This document shows positions 6,077 through 23,484 of a stretch of DNA of 47,239 nucleotides, piece after piece. The translations under genes were made by a program, and so were the position numbers. Position 1 is the first letter of the stretch; every line of letters starts with the position of its first letter. The notes below the pieces were generated by a model, which made no database searches, was not told where the DNA came from, and saw only the letters and a program-made list of their open reading frames with translations. This DNA is from an uncultured Verrucomicrobia subdivision 3 bacterium (GTDB lineage: Bacteria > Verrucomicrobiota > Verrucomicrobiia > Limisphaerales > UBA11358), in contig CAIJGS010000188.1 in NCBI GenBank assembly GCA_903820285.1, forward strand, positions 1 through 47,239, in the 5' to 3' direction.

Positions 6077-6847
6077 TCAGCCGCCAAAAAACTTTAGGCG
6101 GGCCGCCGCCGGGAGGGATTCCAAGTCCAGCAGAGTCAGAAAATCAATTGTTTTAAAGTGCCGGTCCAGCGCCGGCGGACCGCAGATTCTGGCCCCCACG
6201 GTCAAATACGCGCGCAAGAGCTTCGGGACTGACACCGGTTCGGGAGACAACTGATCCAGCGGACAGTCAAATTCAGGCAACGGCCGGGTGCGTAAAGCAA
6301 TTTCTACGAGATGCTGCCGGCCCAGCGTGGCATAGGCGGATGCGCCCACGGCCGGATCCTGGCTGGTCAGGGAACTGCAGCCCACCAGATAGCGTCCGCC
6401 GTGCCGGCGGGCATAATCGGCGATGCCTTTCCAGAGGAGGCCCAGCACTACCAGATTGCGGTGCTGCGCGTGGACACAGGCGCGGCCCAGTTCGATGATT
6501 TCCCGCCGGTATTGGTCGAACCCGGCAAACTCAAATTCCTGCGCGCAATAATAACCGAGATTTTGGGCGGCGGTGGCACCGGTCTGCAAACGATAGGTAC
6601 CCACAATTTGTCCGGATGGAACATGCTCGACCAGCAGGTGGTCGCACACCTCATCGAACGGATCGGCATCCAAGCCGCAGTGATGGGAAGCCTCCAAGCC
6701 TTCTTGTAATTCCAGGTTGAAGACCTGATAACGCAAGGCCTGGGCGGCTTGGACCTCTTGAGCCGTCTCGGCGAGCCGAAGGTGGTAGGCGGAGGCCGAA
6801 CGGACCAGCAGGCGGACGGATCCCAAGGTTATAGGGAGCAGATTCAT
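6077..6847 (-). CDS. GNAT-fold N-acyltransferase, OlsB / N-acyl amino acid synthase-like
   Basis: The ORF track extends to 7108, but those 87 extra residues are a low-complexity reading of the anti-sigma gene in another frame, so the start is placed at the ATG at 6847 (MNLLPITLG), giving 256 residues. The core, from ETAQEVQAAQALRYQVFN through IVGTYRLQTG to EIIELGRACVHAQHRN, matches the acyltransferase family of OlsB and hemolysin-like N-acyl amino acid synthases, which transfer a fatty acyl chain to ornithine or another amine to make aminolipids. It is the last gene of a sigma/anti-sigma/acyltransferase set, all on the minus strand. It should be transcribed from the ECF-type promoter at 7243-7269. 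The lipid substrate is inferred only. Confidence 0.78.
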   Translation of the reverse strand: MNLLPITLGSVRLLVRSASAYHLRLAETAQEVQAAQALRYQVFNLELQEGLEASHHCGLDADPFDEVCDHLLVEHVPSGQIVGTYRLQTGATAAQNLGYYCAQEFEFAGFDQYRREIIELGRACVHAQHRNLVVLGLLWKGIADYARRHGGRYLVGCSSLTSQDPAVGASAYATLGRQHLVEIALRTRPLPEFDCPLDQLSPEPVSVPKLLRAYLTVGARICGPPALDRHFKTIDFLTLLDLESLPAAARLKFFGG

Positions 6848-6918
6848 GGCATGGATTTTCCATCGGGGCACAACGATTCCAGGGGAAACCGCGCCCAAAG
6901 TGGAACGGATGATGGTTG

Positions 6919-7209
6919 TTATTGTTTTTGTTGAAGCCGCTGCCGGATGCGTTCGCGCGCCGCCGCCGAGAGTTTGGGAGCCGGGGCGGATGCCGGGGCC
7001 TCGCCTTGCCACTGCGCGACGGACCGTAAATACCGGAGTTGCCGGCCATATCGGCGGCACCACCGGCAGATCAGCACATGCAACCACAAGCCCAACCGCC
7101 GGGACCATGTCAGCGGATGGTCCAGCATTTCAGACTGGGTGCGCGCCGCCGCCCGACAGTTCGGGGAAAGGTCGGCGCAGACCGTCTTTATATTTTTCCA
7201 ATAGCTCAT
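6919..7209 (-). CDS. ZAS-type zinc-binding anti-sigma factor, small soluble
   Basis: The 96-residue protein carries HVLICRWC (about residues 44-51), an exact HxxxCxxC ZAS motif, preceded by a helix and an upstream cysteine in SPNCRAA. ZAS proteins bind ECF sigma factors and release them when the zinc site is oxidised or another signal is sensed. There is no membrane segment, so it should act in the cytoplasm. It lies directly downstream of the ECF sigma gene, 76 bp away, with its own ECF-type promoter in between. The charged C-terminus ends in RQRLQQKQ. Function is inferred from motif and position. Confidence 0.8.
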   Translation of the reverse strand: MSYWKNIKTVCADLSPNCRAAARTQSEMLDHPLTWSRRLGLWLHVLICRWCRRYGRQLRYLRSVAQWQGEAPASAPAPKLSAAARERIRQRLQQKQ

Positions 7210-7242
7210 TTCAGAACACAGCCGGCTCTGGCTTCAAGAGTT

Positions 7243-7269
7243 GGTCGGCGATCTCGGCGTAACCTTACA
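7243..7269 (-). promoter_or_regulatory. Predicted ECF sigma promoter for anti-sigma / acyltransferase
   Basis: Reading on the minus strand, TGTAAGG (7269-7263), exactly 15 bases, then CGACC (7247-7243). The predicted start point is about 27 nt ahead of the anti-sigma ATG at 7209. It is one of six identical-spacing sites in this region. Confidence 0.8.
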
Positions 7270-7285
7270 GTGAAACGGAGAATTT

Positions 7286-7918
7286 TCATGCCTGTTTTTG
7301 GAACCAGTTGGTTTCGAGGCAGCGGCGCAGGGCCATGCGGGCGCGATGCAGCATCACCCAGAGGTTGCTCTCCGAAATGGCCAGCAGCGCGCAGATTTCT
7401 TTGCTTTCAACGCCATCTACTTCGCGTAGTGTGAAGACAACGGCGACTTTTTTTGGCAATTTGCCGGCGCAATCGCGATAGGTCTGCCAGAACAGCTCAT
7501 TATCCAGACTCTCCCCCTGGTTATGCCATTCTTGGGGACCCAGCTCATGAATCCAGCCGCCCTGTCCCAAGCCATCCGCCACAAAACGATCACTTTCCTC
7601 GTCGCGATAGAATTCGAGATCGGTGAAGGATGTTTCGCGGCCGGCCTTGCGAAAATAATCGAAAATTTTGTTCTTCAGGATGCCCACCAGCCAGCTTTTC
7701 TCAGCGCTGCGGCCCTGGAATTTCTGCCCGCCCTTTAAGGCGGCCAGGAAAGTCTCTTGCACGGCATCCTCCGCTTTGGCCGGGTCGCGCAGGCGAATCA
7801 TGGCGTATTTGAAAAGATAGTCGCCATGCTCGTCCACCCACCGTTCCGGGTCGGAAAGCCCCGGGTGGGTGGCGTCCGGTTTGTCCGGTTCGCGCGGGGA
7901 TGGCAGCTCGCCTTGCAT
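7286..7918 (-). CDS. ECF RNA polymerase sigma factor (sigma-70 family)
   Basis: The 210-residue protein has region 2 from HGDYLFKYAMIRLRDPAKAEDAVQETF (about 30-57) through SWLVGILKNKIFDYFRK, a linker, and region 4 from LPKKVAVVFTLREVDGVES to ISESNLWVMLHRARMALRRCL. There is no region 1.1 or 3, as expected for an ECF factor. It is followed by its presumed ZAS anti-sigma factor. The six TGTAAG-N16-CGAC sites around the gene are the best candidates for its target promoters; none of them precedes this gene. A TATGAT hexamer lies 8 nt before the ATG and might be part of a housekeeping promoter. Confidence 0.92.
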   Translation of the reverse strand: MQGELPSPREPDKPDATHPGLSDPERWVDEHGDYLFKYAMIRLRDPAKAEDAVQETFLAALKGGQKFQGRSAEKSWLVGILKNKIFDYFRKAGRETSFTDLEFYRDEESDRFVADGLGQGGWIHELGPQEWHNQGESLDNELFWQTYRDCAGKLPKKVAVVFTLREVDGVESKEICALLAISESNLWVMLHRARMALRRCLETNWFQKQA

Positions 7919-7987: not shown

Positions 7988-8014
7988 TGTAAGGAATTGC
8001 CACCGCAGGCGACC
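7988..8014 (+). promoter_or_regulatory. Predicted ECF sigma promoter for the Rieske operon
   Basis: TGTAAGG (7988-7994), 15 bases, CGACC (8010-8014). The expected start near 8021 leaves a leader of about 40 nt before the ATG at 8061. The -35 region is embedded in an imperfect inverted repeat, GGCATTCC/GGAATTGCC. Confidence 0.8.
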
Positions 8015-8060: not shown

Positions 8061-8357
8061 ATGACACTTCCATCCATGAAGGCGCCGACGGAAATCCTGT
8101 TGTGCCTGGCCGGTTTATATCTGGGCCTCGGCCTGGCGTTCGCCATCCCCTTCGTGCTGGTGGGAGTGCAACGGATTGATCCCCACGCCCGGCACGCCTC
8201 GTGGGGATTCCGGTTGCTGATCCTGCCTGGAACCATGGCGCTGTGGCCGCTGTTAATGTGGCGCTGGGTCAAAGGCATGTCCACGCCCCCCGAGGAAAGC
8301 AACGCACACCGTCCACCGGCCCGGCCCGGAGCCGCGAAAACATCTTTGCACCCATGA
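8061..8357 (+). CDS. Small two-helix membrane protein
   Basis: The 98-residue protein has two hydrophobic segments, roughly residues 10-35 (LLCLAGLYLGLGLAFAIPFVLVG) and 50-67 (LLILPGTMALWPLLMW), and a polar C-terminal tail. No family was recognised. It is the first gene of a tightly coupled operon. Its TGA overlaps the ATG of the next gene (ATGA), so translation is probably coupled. Given the downstream ferric-reductase/Rieske protein, it may be an accessory subunit of the same membrane redox complex (inference). A second in-frame ATG at 8076 is an alternative start. Confidence 0.7.
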   Translation: MTLPSMKAPTEILLCLAGLYLGLGLAFAIPFVLVGVQRIDPHARHASWGFRLLILPGTMALWPLLMWRWVKGMSTPPEESNAHRPPARPGAAKTSLHP

Positions 8358-10674: not shown

Positions 10675-11598
10675 CTACGATTTGCGGCAGCAGGTACCGT
10701 CCGCCTTATGAACGTGTCCCGGGGCGGCGGGTGAAACCGGTGATGGCGTTTTGAGCGCGTGCAGGGATACAAAGATCACGCCCACCGGAAGGAATAGTGG
10801 TGTCAATACGACCGTCAGCACGCCAAATGCGATCCGCCCCAAGATGCCGGTCCCGGTTTCAACGTTCTGAAACGGCCCGGCCCGGCGCGTCAAAGGGGCA
10901 AACCATAGCTTGGTGTATAGCCACCAGGACTGGCCAAACCGCTGGCCAAAACCATCCCGTTCTGGCTGCTGAGGTTTGGTGGCCTCGCCGCCGGGCAGAT
11001 ACACCAGCGTGTTGACACGGCCAATGTCGGCGTAGGTCTCGGCACTTTCGACAAGTGAGATGGCTTCGGAAAATATCAAGTCGGCCCGCGCCGCCTCGGT
11101 GAGCAGCAGATATTGGCCGGCCTTGACGGAATTCTTCAGCAGGCGATGGACAATGATGACATCCACTCCGGCAAGTTCCACAAAGTTTAGCACCCGGTGA
11201 AACAGAGCCTCGCCGCTGTGCACAATCACCTTGAGTTGAAGGGTCTCGATGTGGGTGCAGGCCTGGCAGTTGCAGGTGGTGGAACGGCCCAACTCGCCCA
11301 ACTTCTGACGAAACTGGTAAAAGAAGGCGAGCAACTGTTCCCCAATGAGGCCGCGGCTTTCCGCCCAGTCTCGCGGGCCATTTTGCTTCCGGCAATACAG
11401 AAAAATAGCGTCCCCCTCCAGCTTGGCCACTTCCAGTGGCAGCTCAATCTGCCGGACAATGGCGTGGATCAATTCCGTGATAATCGTCTGGCTGTGGGCG
11501 AGGGTTTTGACGTTGGCTGTCATGTAGCGCGTATAGCCGCTGATGTCAGCAATAATCAGCAACACGGGTTCGGGGGCGTCGGCGGGACGAGGGTTCAT
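10675..11598 (-). CDS. DUF2652 protein with class III cyclase-like N-terminus
   Basis: The 307-residue protein begins VLLIIADISGYTRYM (residues 12-26) and continues with AKLEGDAIFLYC. These correspond to the metal-binding aspartate and KxxGDA regions of class III nucleotide cyclases and to the DUF2652 family. Whether it is catalytic is unknown. A CNCQACTH segment could bind metal. Near the C-terminus a hydrophobic segment (FGVLTVVLTPLFLPVGVIFVSL) indicates membrane attachment, and the tail ends in HVHKADGTCCRKS. It is transcribed away from the DUF1223 gene, each with its own ECF-type promoter. Confidence 0.8.
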   Translation of the reverse strand: MNPRPADAPEPVLLIIADISGYTRYMTANVKTLAHSQTIITELIHAIVRQIELPLEVAKLEGDAIFLYCRKQNGPRDWAESRGLIGEQLLAFFYQFRQKLGELGRSTTCNCQACTHIETLQLKVIVHSGEALFHRVLNFVELAGVDVIIVHRLLKNSVKAGQYLLLTEAARADLIFSEAISLVESAETYADIGRVNTLVYLPGGEATKPQQPERDGFGQRFGQSWWLYTKLWFAPLTRRAGPFQNVETGTGILGRIAFGVLTVVLTPLFLPVGVIFVSLHALKTPSPVSPAAPGHVHKADGTCCRKS

Positions 11599-11626: not shown

Positions 11627-11653
11627 TGTCGAAGCGGATGGGCATTCCTTACA
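11627..11653 (-). promoter_or_regulatory. Predicted ECF sigma promoter for the DUF2652 gene
   Basis: Minus strand: TGTAAGG (11653-11647), 15 bases, CGACA (11631-11627). The predicted start is about 22 nt before the ATG at 11598. Its -35 lies 21 bp from the -35 of the divergent DUF1223 promoter. Confidence 0.78.
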
Positions 11654-11674: not shown

Positions 11675-11701
11675 TGTAAGTTTTTGCGCCGGCCTGCGAC
11701 C
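11675..11701 (+). promoter_or_regulatory. Predicted ECF sigma promoter for the DUF1223 gene (leaderless mRNA)
   Basis: TGTAAGT (11675-11681), 15 bases, CGACC (11697-11701). Only 7 bases separate the -10 motif from the ATG at 11709, so the transcript should begin at or next to the start codon. There is no room for a Shine-Dalgarno sequence. Confidence 0.78.
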
Positions 11702-11708
11702 CACCGTT

Positions 11709-12500
11709 ATGAATACAAATTTTACCACCCGCTGGCACCAAATCGTCTCTTCCCTGGTCTTGACCGGAGCGCTGGTGGCAAACGCCCAAGCGACGGCCCG
11801 GCATTTTCAGAGCGGTATCAAGCCGGTGCCACTGCTGGAACTATACACATCGGAAGGCTGCAGCAGTTGTCCGTCGGCGGAGGAATGGCTGGGGCGACTG
11901 AAAGATTCGCCGGGCCTGTGGCGGGATTTTTCGCCGCTGGCGCTGCACGTCCATTATTGGGATTCGCCGGTCTGGCGGGATCATTGGTCGGCGCCGGAAT
12001 ACACGGAGCGCCAGCGCAGTTACGCGGAGGCGTGGCACGCCGACAACATCTACACGCCCTGTTTCGTGTTGCAGGGCCAGGAATGGCGCGGCTGGTTTAT
12101 GCACCACGGCGTGCCGGCATCGGCCGGGGAAGACATCGGGGTGCTGGCGGTGAACTCCACCAACGCCCTGCTCTGGAAGGCGACCTTTGTGCCGGCCATG
12201 CCGGCCGACCGGCGGTATGAAATCCACGCCGCGCTGCTGGCCGGTGGATTGGACACCGATGTATTGGGCGGAGAAAATGACGGCCGCCGCTTGCATCATG
12301 AATTTGTGGTGCTGGACCTGATCCAGATCGGGCTGGGCGATTACCATGGCGTGGCGCAGGGCAAATTTATTTTGGATCCCCGGCGATTTCCGCCTGAAAA
12401 ATCGCTGGCCCTGACGGTTTGGGTGACCGTGGCAGGGGAAATGACGCCGCTCCAATCGACCGGCGGCTGGCTCACACCACCGGTCCCGCCGGTGAAATAA
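11709..12500 (+). CDS. DUF1223 family thioredoxin-fold exported protein
   Basis: The 263-residue protein has an N-terminal signal-like segment ending in VANAQA (about residues 20-28). The motif LELYTSEGCSSCPSAEEWL (about 43-61) carries the CxxC of the DUF1223 family, which has a thioredoxin-like fold and acts outside the cytoplasm. LHVHYWDSPVWRDHWS and YTPCFVLQGQEW are further family features. The biochemical role is unknown; disulfide or metal redox chemistry is likely. It is a monocistronic candidate with its own ECF-type promoter. Confidence 0.85.
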   Translation: MNTNFTTRWHQIVSSLVLTGALVANAQATARHFQSGIKPVPLLELYTSEGCSSCPSAEEWLGRLKDSPGLWRDFSPLALHVHYWDSPVWRDHWSAPEYTERQRSYAEAWHADNIYTPCFVLQGQEWRGWFMHHGVPASAGEDIGVLAVNSTNALLWKATFVPAMPADRRYEIHAALLAGGLDTDVLGGENDGRRLHHEFVVLDLIQIGLGDYHGVAQGKFILDPRRFPPEKSLALTVWVTVAGEMTPLQSTGGWLTPPVPPVK

Positions 12501-12507
12501 CAAACGC

Positions 12508-12534
12508 TGTAAGGTTCCCGCAACCCAACCGACT
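12508..12534 (+). promoter_or_regulatory. Predicted ECF sigma promoter for the YHS gene (near leaderless)
   Basis: TGTAAGG (12508-12514), 15 bases, CGACT (12530-12534). The ATG at 12543 is 8 bases downstream of the -10 motif, again predicting a leaderless or nearly leaderless mRNA. Confidence 0.78.
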
Positions 12535-12542
12535 CAATCATC

Positions 12543-12995
12543 ATGAAGAAATTAATTCTTTCCCTCGTGCTGGCCGGACTGGCGCTGCCCGCGTTCGCGC
12601 AAAGCAAAACCCTGCTCAACCTCGACAAGTCAGGCGTGGCCATCCAAGGCTATGATCCCGTGGCCTTTTTCACCGACCACCAGCCGGTGAAGGGCAAGCC
12701 GGATTTCGTGGCGAAGCGGGATGGCGCGATTTATTACTTTGCGTCCAAGGAACATCGTTCACTATTTCTCAAGACGCCCGCGAACTATGAGCCTGCGTAT
12801 GGCGGCTATTGTGCGTACGGTGTTTCGCGCAATCGGCTGGTGGAGATAGACGTGGATGCCTTTCAGGTGGTGGATGGCCGGCTGTTGCTGCAATACAGCA
12901 AGGGCGTGCGTGCGGATTTCAATGAAGATATGAAAGGCAATCTCGCCAAGGCGGAAACCAACTGGCCGGGGCTAGTCATGAAAAAGGGTAAATAG
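12543..12995 (+). CDS. Exported YHS domain protein
   Basis: The 150-residue protein has a clear signal peptide, MKKLILSLVLAGLALPAFAQ, cleaved after AFA. The mature part contains GVAIQGYDPVAFFTDHQPVKG, then YYFASKEHRSLFLKTPANYEPAYGGYCAYGVS, the YHS pattern. YHS domains are associated with metal binding and redox or heavy-metal proteins. The protein should be periplasmic. The next ECF-type promoter begins 3 bp after its stop codon, so the gene is probably its own unit. Confidence 0.88.
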   Translation: MKKLILSLVLAGLALPAFAQSKTLLNLDKSGVAIQGYDPVAFFTDHQPVKGKPDFVAKRDGAIYYFASKEHRSLFLKTPANYEPAYGGYCAYGVSRNRLVEIDVDAFQVVDGRLLLQYSKGVRADFNEDMKGNLAKAETNWPGLVMKKGK

Positions 12996-12997
12996 TA

Positions 12998-13024
12998 TGT
13001 AAGGACTTCATCGTTCTCGCGACC
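12998..13024 (+). promoter_or_regulatory. Predicted ECF sigma promoter for the DinB gene cluster
   Basis: TGTAAGG (12998-13004), 15 bases, CGACC (13020-13024). The ATG used for the DinB gene (13040) is 15 bases downstream, so the leader is very short and shows no Shine-Dalgarno match. Confidence 0.78.
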
Positions 13025-13039
13025 CATGAACATCGAAAT

Positions 13040-13576
13040 ATGAGTTCCCCCATCCACAATGAACTGCTGGTCTCGGTCTTGGAAACGCTCACCCAAGGCG
13101 AGCTGCTGCTGGCGGAAATCAGCGACACCGATTACACGCGCAAACTGCCGGTGGCGTTCAATGCCTCCATTGGAGGCCATTACCGTCACTGTCTGGACCA
13201 TTTCCGCAGCCTGCTGGACGCGGCGGGCGCCGGGAATCTGAATTATGATCACCGGGAACGCGGCACCCTGGTGGAGAGCGATCGGTTTGCGGCGCTCAAC
13301 GCGACGCGCGAATTGCGCGCGGGCTATGAACAACTCAACCCCGCCATCCTGATGCGTTTCCTCGATGTCACCTGCAAAACCAGCTATGCCAGCTGCGGCT
13401 CGCAAGTCTCGCCCTCAACGGTGGGGCGCGAAATCATGTATTCCGTGGCCCATGCTGTGCATCATTATGCGTTGATCGGAGTCATGGCCGGGATCATGGA
13501 GTTGAAATTGCCGGCTGGATTTGGCGTGGCCCCGTCCACCTTGAAACATCAGCAGACCGCCGGCCAGACCGCCTGA
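13040..13576 (+). CDS. DinB-like four-helix metal-binding protein
   Basis: The 178-residue protein has the DinB/YfiT pattern, with histidines in GHYRHCLDHF (about residues 47-56) and AHAVHHYALIGV (about 138-149) that would form the metal site. Family members include low-molecular-weight thiol transferases and damage-induced proteins. There is no signal peptide, so it is cytoplasmic. It is followed closely by the DedA/ATP-grasp gene and probably co-transcribed with it from the ECF-type promoter just upstream. Confidence 0.82.
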   Translation: MSSPIHNELLVSVLETLTQGELLLAEISDTDYTRKLPVAFNASIGGHYRHCLDHFRSLLDAAGAGNLNYDHRERGTLVESDRFAALNATRELRAGYEQLNPAILMRFLDVTCKTSYASCGSQVSPSTVGREIMYSVAHAVHHYALIGVMAGIMELKLPAGFGVAPSTLKHQQTAGQTA

Positions 13577-16020: not shown

Positions 16021-19000
16021 TCAAGGCGATGGCACCGGCACCTGCTGCAACCAAACTTCAATTTGCAGGAACAGATTGTTGGTCGCCGAATAAGGTGCCA
16101 AGGTCCGGGCATGGACGGTTTCCGTGAAACCGTTGGCATCCGGGGTGGCGGACAGTTCGTTGATGTAATTGGTGCCGGTGTACCAGTTCAGCAGGTCGCT
16201 GGAAATGAATACCCCATAGGCCACATCCGTGGGCGGGAGTCGGCGGGTGTACGTCACGCCAAAGTACTTCTGGCCGGTATTGGTATCCGTCTCAAAGGCG
16301 TACTGGAAGGCGGGATTCGGATTCACCGCCTTCGGATCCAGGTTGAAGGCATACTTGGTGAAATTGGGGATGCTGTCATGACTGAAATCCGCCGCCGGAC
16401 CCGACAGTTCCGGATGCGTCAATTGTTCCAGGCTGAAATATTGGATGCTCCACAATCCGTACGGCGAATCATGGATGGTCACCGTGGCGGGGCCGCCGGT
16501 GACCGAGTAGGCAATGTTCGTGAGAATGGTAAGGTTGACGCTTTCATCACCTTCAATGGCATAATCCAAATAAGGCGTCACCGGCAGGGTCATGGTATTG
16601 GAACCGGCCGGGAACACCACCACGTTGGTCAGTTCCACATAATCCACCCCGTTGCTGGCGGTGCCCGAGAAACTGATATTCACCGCAATTTCATTGGTGT
16701 CGCCCACGCGCGTCAGGGTGAAATCACCCGCGACCGGACCGAGTTCATAGGCATCGGAGATGTCGGCGCTGACGCTGAAGGTGGTCGGTTCCAGCACGGT
16801 CACAGTGACTTCATCGTAGGCAGAAACCGCCCCATCATTGGCCGTGAGGCGGAAGGTATAATCGCCGGGCGTGGAGAACACGAACGTGTTCGTGAGGCTG
16901 GCCGGGTTGGTGATCACTACATCCGTGTTGGTGCCGAGATAAGTCCAGACAAACGTCACGGCCGCCGGAGGATTCGGCAGGCCGTCATCGGTGACCGTGC
17001 CAATGAGCGTGACCGGCACACCGATCTGCACCGAGACATCCGGGCCGGCGTTAACAACGGGGGCCTTGTTGGTGTCGGAAGAAGCGGCCAGCGCCAGAAT
17101 TTCGCCCGCATCCAGCGCCCGGGCATACACGCGCACATCATCCAGGCCGCCGTTCCAGGAAGCCGGAGTTTCGATCCCGCCCAATCCGGCGATGAATTGC
17201 GGACAGTTCGTCACCATGCCAAAAGCGGCGGCAAAGCCGGCGAGCGGCTGATCCAACTGCCCGTTGATGTATAGCTTCGGCGCCTCGCCATTGGTCCAGG
17301 TCACCGCCACATGCTGCCAGGCACCGGGCTGCAGCACATTGCTCGCACTGATGCGATGGATCACCCCCGTGGTGGTGGGCAGCGTCACCTCCACCACGTT
17401 GGTGTTATTGCCGCACGAGGCCGAGAGATGCGTGGCGATGGCAAACGTCAGGTTGGTGTCCACGTTGTCCGCCGTCAAAATGCCGCGGTCATCGCCCGGG
17501 TTCACCGGCTGGACCCAGAGCGCGACGGTGAAGGAGGTTAATCCGTTCAGCACATTCGAGCCGGCGGACTGGATGACATTGTCACCGGTCCCGGGGAAAG
17601 TTAGCGCCCCGGCGAGTGCGCCATTGGTAATCCAGGCGGGGCTGCCCACGAGCAGGCCGTCGCACCCGGAGCCGGAGGTGTCCACGGCATTGGTGCCGAC
17701 GCCGTCATCAAAGGCCCAGTGCAACAGCATGTTGGTATCGGCCAGCTCCGAACTGACAAAGACCAGCACATCCGCGTGGCCCTGCAAGAGGCCGGTGTCC
17801 GCCGTGAGCCGCAGGAGATACGCCCCCGGATTGGTGAACGTGACCGAGGTGGAGGCGGTGTTGGTGCTGCTGAAAGTGTAATCCGGAGGCCCGGTCACTT
17901 CGCTCCAGGTCAGGATGTTGTTGGTACTGTTGCCGGTGACGGTGGCATCTAGCTCAAGACCGGCATTGGTGCCGCTTAAAAAGACCACATAGCTTGTCGG
18001 ATTGGTAATCGTTACCAGCGGTGTCAGGTTTGTGCCCGCATCGGCAATGGTGAGGATCGCATTGCTGGGCGAGAGAATGGTGTAGGCGGGATCCGGCAGG
18101 ATCACGGCGGTGACACTTTCATCCCCTTCCACCGCACCTTCGTTTGTCGGTGAGATCAACAGGTCAATCGTAGTGATGCCGCAGGAAAAATAGATATTTG
18201 TGGCGATCGGCGGATAATCCACCCCATAGGTGGCCATGCCACCGAGCGCCACATGCGCGGTGAAATCATATTTCGGATCGCCCAGACGGGTGAGCCGGAA
18301 AATACCATTGGTGCTGCTGCCCTCCAACACATTGGTCACAATCGAGGTGATATACAACATCGGCTGATCATCCATGATGGTCACGGTGCCGTTGGTCGGC
18401 GTGCCCAGTTGATACACCACGTTCGTTTGCAAGGTCAGGGTGACCGTCCGCGGCCCCTCGACCACGCCATCCTCCAGCGGCAAAATGGTCAGGGTATTGG
18501 TGAGGCTGCCGGCGGGGATGACGATGAAATTGGTAAGGAAGGCATAGTCCACCCCGTTGGTGGCCGTGCCGCTGATGGTGTAATAGACCGTGACCGCCGT
18601 GTTGGTGGTGCCAAACCGCGTAAAGGTAAACTGTCCGGGGTCGGTGCCAGGCTTGGCGGCGGTGAAGTCGCTGGCGTCAATCCATACGCGCTGGTCGTTG
18701 TCTTGAATGGTTACAGTGGCGGAGGACGGGAAAACCGTCTGGAAGGTATTGCCTTCGGTCAGAGAGATGATCACCGTCCGGTCACCTTCCACCACCTTGT
18801 CATCCACGGCCGTGATGGTGATGCTGGCATTGGATTGCCCCACCGGAATCGTCACGCCATTGGTGATGGCTGAATAGTCAGTGCCGTTGCGGGCGGTGCC
18901 AGAAACGGTGAAAGGAATCAGCAGTGCGTTCGTAACCGGACCGGTGCGGGTAAAGACAAATTGCCCGGTCCCGCCGCCTTCCACGGCATAGGGCTGATTC

Positions 19001-22000
19001 GTGGAGGTAACCGTGACCACCGGCAGGTTATTGGTATAGTTCGGGACGATGGTCACCGCGGCCACGCTGGGCGAGAGAATATTACCGTTCGTCGCGCTGA
19101 TGAGTGTCAGCACCACCGTTCCGGGCAGCTTCATGGTGCGATTGGTATTCGGCAAAACGGGCAGATCCACGGAGAGGGTGCCGGCGGGAATAACCACACT
19201 GTTGCCCAGCGGGGAATAATCCGTCGGGGCGCTGGCGGAGCCGGTGATTTGGAACAGCACCGCCTGGCTGGCATTGGTGGAGCCCGTGCGCGAGATGACG
19301 AAGTGGCCCGGGCTGCTGCTGGTGGCATTCGTCACGGTGGCGCTCACGCTGACCTGCGCGGCGTCATCATCCAGAATGGTATAGGTATGTATCTTGATGG
19401 CGCCGAGCGAGGCGTTGACGGGATTGACCAGCACCACCCGGACGGTTTGGGCCGGCTCGACGGTGGAATCATTAACAATGCGCAACGGGATGACGCCCGT
19501 CCAGCCGTTGGAAATGGTGAGGGTGCCCGGCGCCAACGAGTAACGGTTGGATGCCGCCGTACCGCCAATCACGCGATAGTCCACCGAAACCGGCACCGAG
19601 GACGTGGTGCTGAGCGTGACCGTGATGCCCGGCGACAGGCCTTCCGGGTAGGCGGAAGTGGCAAAGGAAAAGCCCACCGCCACGCCGGTGTTGCTGGTAT
19701 CGCCAGTGATGGTGACATCCGCCGTGGCGGGATTGGCCACATTGTAATTGGTGGTGCCCAGCACGGTAAGCTCCACATCTTCGCTGGAATCCAGGATCAG
19801 ATTTTGGAAGGGAATCACTTCCACCGTGGTGGAGGAAGCGCCGTTGGGGATCACCACCGGCGTATCAATCGGTGCATAATCAAAACCGCTTACCGCCGTA
19901 CCGCTCACGGCCAGATAAACCGTCAGGTCACCGCTCGTGCCATTTCGCGAAATGGTGAACTCCCCGGTGGTATCGCCCTGTTGCGAGACGGTGGGCGTGC
20001 TGGCGGTGATGCTCACGAGCGGCAGCTTGTCATCCTGGATGGACATCGTAGCGCTACCGGGGGTGCCAACTTCATAGTTGAGCGTATTGGTCAGAATCAG
20101 GGTCACGGTTTGATTGCCATAAACCGTCGGGTCTTCGATGGGATTCAGGGTGACGCTGGTGGAGGCCTGGCCGGCGGGAATGGTCACCGTGCCGCTCAAG
20201 GCGGTATAATCCGTACCAGGAATGGCGCTGCCGCTGACATTATAATTAACGACCAGGGCTTGGGTCAGGTCCCCTTCCCGTTCCACCGTAAAGGTGCCGC
20301 TGGTGGCGGGATCGGCCGCATTTCTGGTGGTTGAAACTGTTACCGTCATGAAATCATCGTCCTGAATGGTGATGGTGGCCTTGCTGGCGCTGGAGGCCAC
20401 ACTGTAACCGGCATCGGCCGTCAGGGCGACTTGGATGGTCGAGGTGGTATCCACCTTTTTATCATCAATGGTCACCACGGGAATCACGACGCTGCCCTCG
20501 CCGGCCGGAATCACCGCCACGCCGGGCAGGTAAACATAATCCACTCCGTTAGTCGCCGTGCCGCTGGTGGTATAATAGACCGTCAGATCGCTGTTCAGAC
20601 TGCCGCTGCGCGAGAAAATGAGCTGGCCATTATCAATGCCGCTTTCGGAAATCTCCGGCGTGGTGGTGATCAGAGAAACCTGGGGAGGATTCGGCTGGGT
20701 GTCGCTGACCATCGTGATGCTGGCCTCCGCCAGGGACGCCAGAACATAGGCCGGGCTGTCGCCATTCGTGTCATCCACCACAGTCAGAGTGGCGGTTTCG
20801 CTCCCGCCGCTGAATGCGCCATTGTTGGCCTGAAAAGCGAGCGTGATGCTGTTGGTGCCAGCCGGAATGATCAGCACGTTATTCGTATCCGGCGCCGGGT
20901 TCAGGGTGTAGGCCGATCCCAGCAACGCACTGCCGGAGACATAGACCTGCACGGCGAGATCATTGTTGGTGTCACCGGTGCGGGTAAGCGTGAAATAATG
21001 GATCGAAGTATCGCTTTCCGGAATGCTGTTGGTATCCGCCGTCAGGTTGACCGCGCTCATCGGCATGGCCGAGAAATCCAGTCCGGCCATGTCATTCGTC
21101 GGTGCCAGGGGATTGGACCAGTTGGTTGCGGCGGTAAACGTATAGCCAAACAAAGTCGCCTGCAGGGTAATATTGCTGGCAATGCCGGTGATGAGGTAGC
21201 GGCCGTTGCTGTCCGTGTAGCCGCCGGCAAAATTGGTAGTGGAAAGCGAACCGTTGCCGACCAATACGCCTTCGATCGGCACGCCATTGCTGTCGGTGAT
21301 CTGACCGGTGAGATTAAAGCCGTTGGCAGCGCCGACCGTTACCAGCATGTTGGCGCTGGCCTCGCCGCCTTTCATGTCGCTCACCACGCAGCGCACCACA
21401 TGGTCGCCGCTATTCGTCCAACTGTACGAGGTCCAGGGCAGATTGTTGGTGGCAAACGCCACGCCGTCAAAGGTCCAGGCATAGGCCAGGGTGTCGCCAT
21501 CCGGATCCGTCGCGGTGGCATGGAAATGCACCAAAGCTCCGGTGGTCACATTGGTCTGATCCACCTCCACTCCCAGCACCGGCGGCTGGTTGCTCGGAAA
21601 GGCGCCCATATTCACCTGCACATCCAGCCAGGGATCGGTGCCGGTGGCGCCGCGCTGGAGCGTGGTGATATGTACCCCCGCTGCCATGTCATTAAAAGTG
21701 CGGCCCACCACCACGGCGGCGTCTTCCCGGCTGGAATCATCGTTCGGGTTCGGTGAACCCGGTGTGGTATCAACCATCTGGGCGCCGCCATTGCTGAAGG
21801 GCCACGGGGACCATTCCAAAAGCACGCCGTTTTCCAGCCACGGATTGGCGGTATATTGCTGGCGGAATTCCATCCAGTAGTAGCGCAGACCGTCTTTCCG
21901 GATCACCCCGGCATAAGTGCGGCCGTCCACCCGTTTGGACGCCGGCACGTCAAACGGGTAAATGCGATAGACCCCGTTCGTTGTGATGCTCTGAACGGCA

Positions 22001-23484
22001 TCTGCTTTCAGCCAGTCGAGCGCCTTTTTATGGCACGAATTGAACTGTGCCACACCGCCCGAGCCCATCGTGTCGTAAATGTTGCCATATTCCAGATTCG
22101 CCCCCGGCCCGATGCCGCTGGCGTTGGTGATGGTGTTCCAGAAATTGGCATGCCAGAGACCGAAGTTATGCCCCAACTCATGCGCGGTCACCCCCACGCC
22201 GAAGCTCTGCACCCATACCCCCTTGCCACCAACGTAGCCCAGTCCACCCCAGGTGAAGCCCGGCACACTGGTCAATGCCACCACGTCGCGATCATAATTG
22301 GCCGTATCATATCCGGCGGCCTTGGCCGCGGTACGGGCATCGGCCAGCAGGTAATAGGGATCGTTGCTCGCGTAATAAGCTTTGGTTTGCGGCAAGGTCA
22401 CCAGCGGCGTGACCGTGGTCGTAAAACTGGCCAGATTGTAGGAATTCGCGGTGTAGTACGTATTGACCCCATCCATCACGGCATAGGCATCACTCATGGA
22501 TATGGGCTCCGTCAGGTCATCGGGAAAATTGACCCGCATATAGAGCAGCGACTTGTTGCCATGGGTCCAGGCATCATCAGTCACAATGGGCACGCCGTTC
22601 GTGCTGGTGTCGCCGCCACTCTCTGCCAGTGCCAGATGCCGGCCAACGAGGTCATAGTGGTCGGTCCCGCAAAAGCAGATGACTCCCCCGCCATTTTCGG
22701 CATAAACCGGCTGATTGCGCACATTGACCGACAGGCCGGACACCGAACATACGGCGTCCACCGGTTTCACCGCACTTTTGTCCAATGCGGTGGCCTCGGC
22801 CAGTGTCAAAACCCGCAATGGGTCACTCGAGACCGCCATCTTTCCATCCAATGCCACCCCGTGCAGGGGAATACCCTGCTGCGACATCTGGGTCAGGCGC
22901 CGGCCATAGGCATACGCCTGATACACTTGAGCGCCAAACTGCGCATAACGGTAGGTGGCGGAATTGCCATTGGCAAAATCGGTCGCCACCGCCACGTTAA
23001 AATCACCCCGACCATCCACCTGAGCTTCGAAATAGCGGGTGATTTCTGGCGGCAATTCCTGCCGCCAGGCATAGGGCACTGACAATTGGATGGCTTGGGC
23101 CGGGTCCGTTTGAATCAAGGATCGCATGGCGGCCTGCCGTTCCTTCGCCAGCCGTTCGCCATCGGCGAGACTGGCGGTACCATTGGTAAACCGGCTGACC
23201 CAACCAGAAAAGTCGGTGAAGCTGACCAGACCGCTGGGCTTCGCCGGGGATGTGGACACGGTTTTGCTGGTCGATCCGATTATCAGATTAGTCGCCGCCA
23301 AGCTCGGCAGATGTGCGGGAATGATCGGTGGTGGCGTGGCAGTGGACCGTGCAGTAGCTGCGGTGGTTGCTGGCGGGGAGGTCGATCCGGGTGGTACATG
23401 GGGCCATAACCATACGCCCAGCGTGAGAACAACCACGGCCAGTGCCACCGTACCCAATCCCAATAAAATATGACGATTTTTCAA
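16021..23484 (-). CDS. Giant secreted metzincin protease with ten Calx-beta domains
   Basis: The 2487-residue product starts at a TTG with a strong Shine-Dalgarno (GGGAGG, 4 nt spacing). Order: N-terminal signal/anchor (about 7-27), Ser/Thr/Pro-rich linker, protease region with zinc motif HELGHNFGLWH at 435-445 and Met-turn-like YDTMGSGG (M11/metzincin type), PKD (about 630-715), carboxypeptidase-regulatory-like domain (721-800), nine consecutive Calx-beta domains of about 110 residues (810-1815; repeated SGTATNGVDY), a second PKD/REJ-like domain (1820-1915), LamG (1918-2128), a third PKD (2137-2230), a tenth Calx-beta, and a C-terminal segment of a type common in verrucomicrobial secreted proteins. 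Calx-beta and PKD repeats suggest a long calcium-stiffened stalk. No PEP-CTERM or LPXTG sorting tail is seen. Confidence 0.9.
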   Translation of the reverse strand: MKNRHILLGLGTVALAVVVLTLGVWLWPHVPPGSTSPPATTAATARSTATPPPIIPAHLPSLAATNLIIGSTSKTVSTSPAKPSGLVSFTDFSGWVSRFTNGTASLADGERLAKERQAAMRSLIQTDPAQAIQLSVPYAWRQELPPEITRYFEAQVDGRGDFNVAVATDFANGNSATYRYAQFGAQVYQAYAYGRRLTQMSQQGIPLHGVALDGKMAVSSDPLRVLTLAEATALDKSAVKPVDAVCSVSGLSVNVRNQPVYAENGGGVICFCGTDHYDLVGRHLALAESGGDTSTNGVPIVTDDAWTHGNKSLLYMRVNFPDDLTEPISMSDAYAVMDGVNTYYTANSYNLASFTTTVTPLVTLPQTKAYYASNDPYYLLADARTAAKAAGYDTANYDRDVVALTSVPGFTWGGLGYVGGKGVWVQSFGVGVTAHELGHNFGLWHANFWNTITNASGIGPGANLEYGNIYDTMGSGGVAQFNSCHKKALDWLKADAVQSITTNGVYRIYPFDVPASKRVDGRTYAGVIRKDGLRYYWMEFRQQYTANPWLENGVLLEWSPWPFSNGGAQMVDTTPGSPNPNDDSSREDAAVVVGRTFNDMAAGVHITTLQRGATGTDPWLDVQVNMGAFPSNQPPVLGVEVDQTNVTTGALVHFHATATDPDGDTLAYAWTFDGVAFATNNLPWTSYSWTNSGDHVVRCVVSDMKGGEASANMLVTVGAANGFNLTGQITDSNGVPIEGVLVGNGSLSTTNFAGGYTDSNGRYLITGIASNITLQATLFGYTFTAATNWSNPLAPTNDMAGLDFSAMPMSAVNLTADTNSIPESDTSIHYFTLTRTGDTNNDLAVQVYVSGSALLGSAYTLNPAPDTNNVLIIPAGTNSITLAFQANNGAFSGGSETATLTVVDDTNGDSPAYVLASLAEASITMVSDTQPNPPQVSLITTTPEISESGIDNGQLIFSRSGSLNSDLTVYYTTSGTATNGVDYVYLPGVAVIPAGEGSVVIPVVTIDDKKVDTTSTIQVALTADAGYSVASSASKATITIQDDDFMTVTVSTTRNAADPATSGTFTVEREGDLTQALVVNYNVSGSAIPGTDYTALSGTVTIPAGQASTSVTLNPIEDPTVYGNQTVTLILTNTLNYEVGTPGSATMSIQDDKLPLVSITASTPTVSQQGDTTGEFTISRNGTSGDLTVYLAVSGTAVSGFDYAPIDTPVVIPNGASSTTVEVIPFQNLILDSSEDVELTVLGTTNYNVANPATADVTITGDTSNTGVAVGFSFATSAYPEGLSPGITVTLSTTSSVPVSVDYRVIGGTAASNRYSLAPGTLTISNGWTGVIPLRIVNDSTVEPAQTVRVVLVNPVNASLGAIKIHTYTILDDDAAQVSVSATVTNATSSSPGHFVISRTGSTNASQAVLFQITGSASAPTDYSPLGNSVVIPAGTLSVDLPVLPNTNRTMKLPGTVVLTLISATNGNILSPSVAAVTIVPNYTNNLPVVTVTSTNQPYAVEGGGTGQFVFTRTGPVTNALLIPFTVSGTARNGTDYSAITNGVTIPVGQSNASITITAVDDKVVEGDRTVIISLTEGNTFQTVFPSSATVTIQDNDQRVWIDASDFTAAKPGTDPGQFTFTRFGTTNTAVTVYYTISGTATNGVDYAFLTNFIVIPAGSLTNTLTILPLEDGVVEGPRTVTLTLQTNVVYQLGTPTNGTVTIMDDQPMLYITSIVTNVLEGSSTNGIFRLTRLGDPKYDFTAHVALGGMATYGVDYPPIATNIYFSCGITTIDLLISPTNEGAVEGDESVTAVILPDPAYTILSPSNAILTIADAGTNLTPLVTITNPTSYVVFLSGTNAGLELDATVTGNSTNNILTWSEVTGPPDYTFSSTNTASTSVTFTNPGAYLLRLTADTGLLQGHADVLVFVSSELADTNMLLHWAFDDGVGTNAVDTSGSGCDGLLVGSPAWITNGALAGALTFPGTGDNVIQSAGSNVLNGLTSFTVALWVQPVNPGDDRGILTADNVDTNLTFAIATHLSASCGNNTNVVEVTLPTTTGVIHRISASNVLQPGAWQHVAVTWTNGEAPKLYINGQLDQPLAGFAAAFGMVTNCPQFIAGLGGIETPASWNGGLDDVRVYARALDAGEILALAASSDTNKAPVVNAGPDVSVQIGVPVTLIGTVTDDGLPNPPAAVTFVWTYLGTNTDVVITNPASLTNTFVFSTPGDYTFRLTANDGAVSAYDEVTVTVLEPTTFSVSADISDAYELGPVAGDFTLTRVGDTNEIAVNISFSGTASNGVDYVELTNVVVFPAGSNTMTLPVTPYLDYAIEGDESVNLTILTNIAYSVTGGPATVTIHDSPYGLWSIQYFSLEQLTHPELSGPAADFSHDSIPNFTKYAFNLDPKAVNPNPAFQYAFETDTNTGQKYFGVTYTRRLPPTDVAYGVFISSDLLNWYTGTNYINELSATPDANGFTETVHARTLAPYSATNNLFLQIEVWLQQVPVPSP

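Follow-up and report, generated by a model that had tools for sequence, protein, structure and literature searches.

The window analysed here, a stretch of 47,239 nucleotides that forms one contig of a 5.2 Mb metagenome-assembled genome of an uncultured Verrucomicrobia subdivision 3 bacterium, contains ECF-type promoters that directly abut the start codons of their target genes, and unrelated target families in related genomes share this promoter-at-ATG arrangement. The promoter motif, the spacing of its two elements, a peak of ATG codons shortly behind it and a pyrimidine-purine step at a fixed position are observed directly. These features are best explained by a leaderless promoter model, to which, taken as a whole (sigma factor, start at about the ninth base, ATG at + 1 and leaderless initiation), we assign a probability of about 0.85. 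A TIGR02943-type ECF sigma factor, restrained by a small anti-sigma factor of the antisigmaE family, would recognise TGTAAG(G)-N15/16-CGACNAA, and transcription would begin around the ninth base after CGAC, on the purine of a pyrimidine-purine step. For a large share of the targets, including the DUF1223 and YHS genes, the A of the ATG would be that purine or lie within about 3 bases of it, so that the mRNA would start with AUG or nearly so and be translated by leaderless initiation. The DinB-like gene would carry a very short leader (~ 8 nt); ordinary leaders lacking a Shine-Dalgarno (SD) motif would precede the anti-sigma, DUF2652 and 98-aa genes. For the genes that abut their promoters, we infer initiation at a 5'-terminal AUG.

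Promoter copies around the sigma factor locus

Six exact copies of TGTAAG-N16-CGAC are present in the window, all inside the 6 kb that surround an ECF sigma/anti-sigma pair. Only two further exact matches occur elsewhere in the genome, one within a repetitive coding-like stretch and the other without an evident downstream gene. When one mismatch is allowed, the window displays 7 matches against 1.3 expected, a number reached by none of 100 shuffles. Shuffling of the window, rarity in the genome and the ATG peak in relatives together rule out a chance motif.

Three copies lie directly upstream of the genes for which promoters had been proposed in a preliminary description of this DNA. The DUF1223 promoter (11675-11700, + strand) is followed by ccaccgtt-ATG, its CGAC ending 8 nt before the start codon of the gene (11709-12500, +; PF06764, E = 4.7e-39). 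The YHS promoter (12508-12533, +) is followed by tcaatcatc-ATG, with CGAC ending 9 nt before a YHS-domain (seleno)protein family gene (12543-12995, +; NF041384, E = 9.9e-40) that encodes a conserved signal-peptide-like N-terminus. At the third copy (12998-13023, +), CGAC ends 16 nt before the ATG of a DinB-like gene (13040-13576, +), named after a weak DinB_2 match (E = 0.0025) that is below the cut-off. In all three cases, the ATG is the start codon. The gaps of 7 and 8 bases reported earlier for DUF1223 and YHS had been counted from a 5-nt -10 box and become 8 and 9 when counted from the end of CGAC; the close proximity holds. That description was right about these three promoters; three copies with predicted leaders had been overlooked. 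They are found between the sigma and anti-sigma genes (7244-7269, -; CGAC ending 34 nt before the anti-sigma start, predicted leader 26 nt), before a 98-aa gene at 8061 and those that follow it (7988-8013, +; 47 nt, predicted leader ~ 38-39 nt) and before the DUF2652 gene at 10675-11598 (-) (11628-11653, -; 29 nt, predicted leader 21 nt).

The presumed reader of the promoter is encoded at 7286-7918 (-). This 210-aa protein matches TIGR02943 / Sig70_famx1 with 189 bits, over the cut-off, and displays the Pfam domains Sigma70_r2 and r4_2, as an ECF type with regions 2 and 4 only. The closest named relative of the sigma gene, 93% identical, also comes from an uncultured member of Verrucomicrobia subdivision 3. 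A short anti-sigma gene (6919-7209, -; 96 aa; NF052368 antisigmaE, 58 bits, cut-off 50) follows directly downstream. Among the family genomes, the strict motif occurs in 10 of the 13 having the sigma gene and in 2 of the 24 lacking it (p = 4e-5), and this co-occurrence lends correlational support to our inference that a sigma factor of the TIGR02943 type reads the motif.

The promoter within the 7210-7285 (-) interval lies 5' of the anti-sigma gene only, and the sigma gene has no exact upstream copy, so the sigma factor appears to drive its own inhibitor and not itself. The same layout occurs in several relatives, at four loci. Relatives often, here at six loci, have two anti-sigma-like genes near one sigma gene, and in several of them the second such gene has its own promoter copy. 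Elsewhere in the class, two loci from other families have a different sigma-70-like (ECF) gene that begins 11 nt after a motif copy, which suggests that these sigma genes may be autoregulated and near-leaderless. Also near the window's sigma locus are a Rieske/ferric-reductase-like gene and an ORF called at 6077-7108 (-), acyltransferase-like by eye, that as called overlaps the end of the anti-sigma gene. Farther along, a 2487-aa ORF at 16021-23484 (-) has, again judged by eye, an N-terminal part resembling a metalloprotease and Calx-beta-like stretches that are repeated.

Predicted transcript starts and leaders

The position of the transcript start was approached through 51 promoters lacking any ATG in the next 18 nt, a set in which a start codon cannot cause the signal. 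In 32 of these (63%), a pyrimidine-purine step, the usual bacterial initiator step, occupies positions 8/9 after CGAC, as compared with 24% elsewhere (p = 4e-9). A similar position emerges from the homologous Neisseria sigmaE promoter (GTAAGGTT / CGTCTAA), where the msrAB start has been mapped to a conserved A that lies six bases downstream of the -10 element (PMC2893595), approximately the tenth base after CGTC. As both lines point there, + 1 is probably located at position 9-10 after CGAC.

With the transcript start placed at position 9, the predicted leaders measure 0 nt for DUF1223, 0-1 nt for YHS and 8 nt for DinB. At DUF1223, position 9 is the A of the ATG and is preceded by T, giving a T-A step at 8/9. 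The nearest pyrimidine-purine step at YHS is C-A at 9/10, whose purine is again the A of the ATG. At DinB, a C-A step puts an A at position 9, and the predicted leader is AUCGAAAU, in line with the earlier estimate of under about 10 nt. We rejected a 5'-terminal start at a mini-ORF (ATGAACATCGAAATATGA) that overlaps the start of DinB and would be leaderless, since its ATG begins 5' of the predicted + 1, at position 3 after CGAC.

The six promoters of the window are thus predicted to comprise two leaderless cases (DUF1223 and YHS), one near-leaderless case (DinB) and three leadered ones. Hence, the earlier proposal of ECF-driven leaderless mRNAs is well supported for DUF1223 and YHS and comes close for DinB, but does not extend to the whole regulon, which is mixed because the other three copies, that of the anti-sigma gene included, have predicted leaders of 21-39 nt.

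Spacing between promoter and ATG in related genomes

Related promoters were drawn from the sigma locus of 13 family genomes, from 39 loci of named genomes and from the sequence flanking strict motif matches across 293 genomes of the order, these matches being collected without regard to any ATG. Removal of near-duplicates at 80% identity left 117 copies of TGTAAG-N16-CGAC. An ATG occurs 8-12 nt after CGAC in 51 of the 117, compared with 9.5 predicted from positions 23-100 (Poisson p = 4e-21), among sites that are spread across many gene families and, despite the de-duplication, not fully independent. The strict subset behaves likewise, with 38 of 86 copies against an expected 7.5. A pyrimidine directly precedes the leaderless ATG in 34 of 41 cases (Fisher p for a -1 pyrimidine 0.03). 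The accompanying shortage of ATGs at 14-22 nt among the related promoters was not significant (11 vs 17).

Spacings of 13, 14, 15, 17, 18 and 19 yielded 1, 0, 0, 3, 0 and 0 sites (4 in total) vs 117 at N16, a contrast that is partly built in because the N16 pattern itself served to collect some of the sites; for the loci fetched via the sigma gene it is not. Without the -35 requirement, CGACNAA displays only a weak excess, 69 vs 41. Reversed patterns are a poor null for the strict motif, their totals being similar in size, and we relied on spacing and position controls in their place.

The distance is maintained within individual families. CGAC lies 8-11 nt from the ATG in 11 YHS orthologues (that of the window included), while spacer and gap sequences diverge, and all 11 have a signal-peptide-like N-terminus beginning at that ATG. 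This conservation fixes the YHS start codon, and a wrongly assigned start was rejected on the same grounds. DUF1223 loci display distances of 8, 8 and 9 nt, with a fourth, distant locus lacking a clear start, and the spacing of 8 is kept in one relative (L023) despite sequence change. MsrBA-type reductases (8, 8 and 8 nt), AhpC/TSA-like proteins (8, 8 and 8 nt) and GMC oxidoreductases (9, 10, 10 and 11 nt) of relatives follow the same rule. Anti-sigma genes are mostly leadered (25-83 nt), with 2 of 17 at 8-12 nt. Clustering of all targets gave 41 families, 22 of which have one or more members at 8-12 nt. This count takes in some doubtful short ORFs and is descriptive only, because an ATG-containing pattern was used to choose some of the loci.

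Alternative readings and known systems

The YHS and DinB genes begin only 42-44 nt behind the stop codon of the preceding gene, so that read-through could add leadered polycistronic messages. This operon-like placement raises the possibility that the promoters are real but that most translation of DUF1223, YHS and DinB uses longer transcripts started farther upstream, the leaderless form being minor. We regard this as improbable, since every gene retains its own promoter copy, DUF1223 is divergent from DUF2652 and therefore has no co-directional gene immediately upstream, and the 8-11 nt kept in 11 YHS orthologues would be pointless were the leadered form the functional one. The tight packing of genes could also bring -10 element and ATG together by mere compaction of short intergenic regions, without leaderless initiation. 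Compaction predicts a smooth distribution of distances, whereas the observed distances peak at 8-12 nt and coincide with the independently inferred position 9, which makes this the least credible of the readings.

A further reading concerns what the leaderless form is for. The preliminary description had noted that no Shine-Dalgarno can fit before these genes and had suggested translation selective under stress, where altered ribosomes or a shifted IF2/IF3 balance would favour such mRNAs when the sigma factor is active. There are precedents from E. coli (MazF, kasugamycin), and M. tuberculosis reporters showed an effect that was partial and transient (PMC8485053). The remark on the Shine-Dalgarno is true but uninformative. 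In this genome, SD use was not detectable, as the GGAG/GAGG core occurs at -18 to -4 in 5% of 126 ORFs vs 3-7% in controls; the same caller finds it in 28% vs 3-6% in E. coli K-12. Absence of an SD therefore neither sets these genes apart nor allows a stress-selective mRNA class to be deduced. With no SD-led majority to switch from, and with leaders on other genes of the regulon, the anti-sigma gene included, the proposal of stress-selective translation is not supported, and we consider it unlikely. The 16S gene was not found in the metagenome-assembled genome; SD-scarce Verrucomicrobia are known (PMC10783764).

Beyond the leaderless promoter model itself, we can only speculate that in SD-scarce Verrucomicrobia the ECF regulon evolved a fused promoter/start-codon unit, with the initiating purine as the A of AUG, and that leaderless effectors versus a leadered anti-sigma factor might set their translation relative to each other while the sigma factor is active. 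Separately, TANNNT boxes 6-9 nt before an ATG are about threefold enriched in this genome (14 vs 4.9 expected in the window and loci L153-L172, with crude start calls and a gap range picked after inspection), which is suggestive only of leaderless housekeeping genes.

The closest known systems are Neisseria sigmaE-MseR (PMC2893595, PMC3240639) and Haemophilus RpoE2-HrsE (PMC7907618). Both pair a sigma factor with a short anti-sigma factor, as in the window. The Neisseria promoter resembles that of the window, with agreement in -35 element and register, and its -10 differs by one core base (CGTC instead of the CGAC of CGACNAA). Both systems control MsrAB, which is not among the targets of the six window promoters, though an MsrBA-type protein (PMSR and SelR domains) is targeted in three relatives. 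DUF1223, YHS, DinB and DUF2652 are targets here, unlike in Neisseria and Haemophilus, and leaderless starts are not described in the accessible parts of those reports. Caulobacter sigmaF-NrsF has a similar promoter, GTAACC-N16-CGAA, and a different anti-sigma factor (NrsF); the available text gives a single near-leaderless example, the sigmaF target CC2907, with a RACE-mapped start only 7 nt before the start codon (PMC3511200). Among the open-licence papers searched, we found no report of an ECF regulon whose unrelated targets repeatedly share the promoter-at-ATG arrangement.

In Actinobacteria and Deinococcus-Thermus, it is established that leaderless genes have their -10 box ~ 12 bp ahead of the start codon (PMC3160421, PMC12340547, PMC3898074). 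There, as predicted here, the -10 element borders the ORF and AUG forms the 5' end of the mRNA. The arrangement described here would predict start sites exactly, in a form open to testing, for dozens of genes and offer a way of correcting start codons, and a single sigma factor with both leaderless and leadered targets would provide a natural comparison. The leaderless genes of Actinobacteria and Deinococcus-Thermus use a housekeeping TANNNT box genome-wide, in contrast to the ECF-type promoter with conserved -35 element in an SD-scarce Verrucomicrobia lineage. Bacterial leaderless genes are known mainly via housekeeping promoters, whereas here the promoter of an alternative sigma factor is repeatedly joined to the start codons of unrelated targets.
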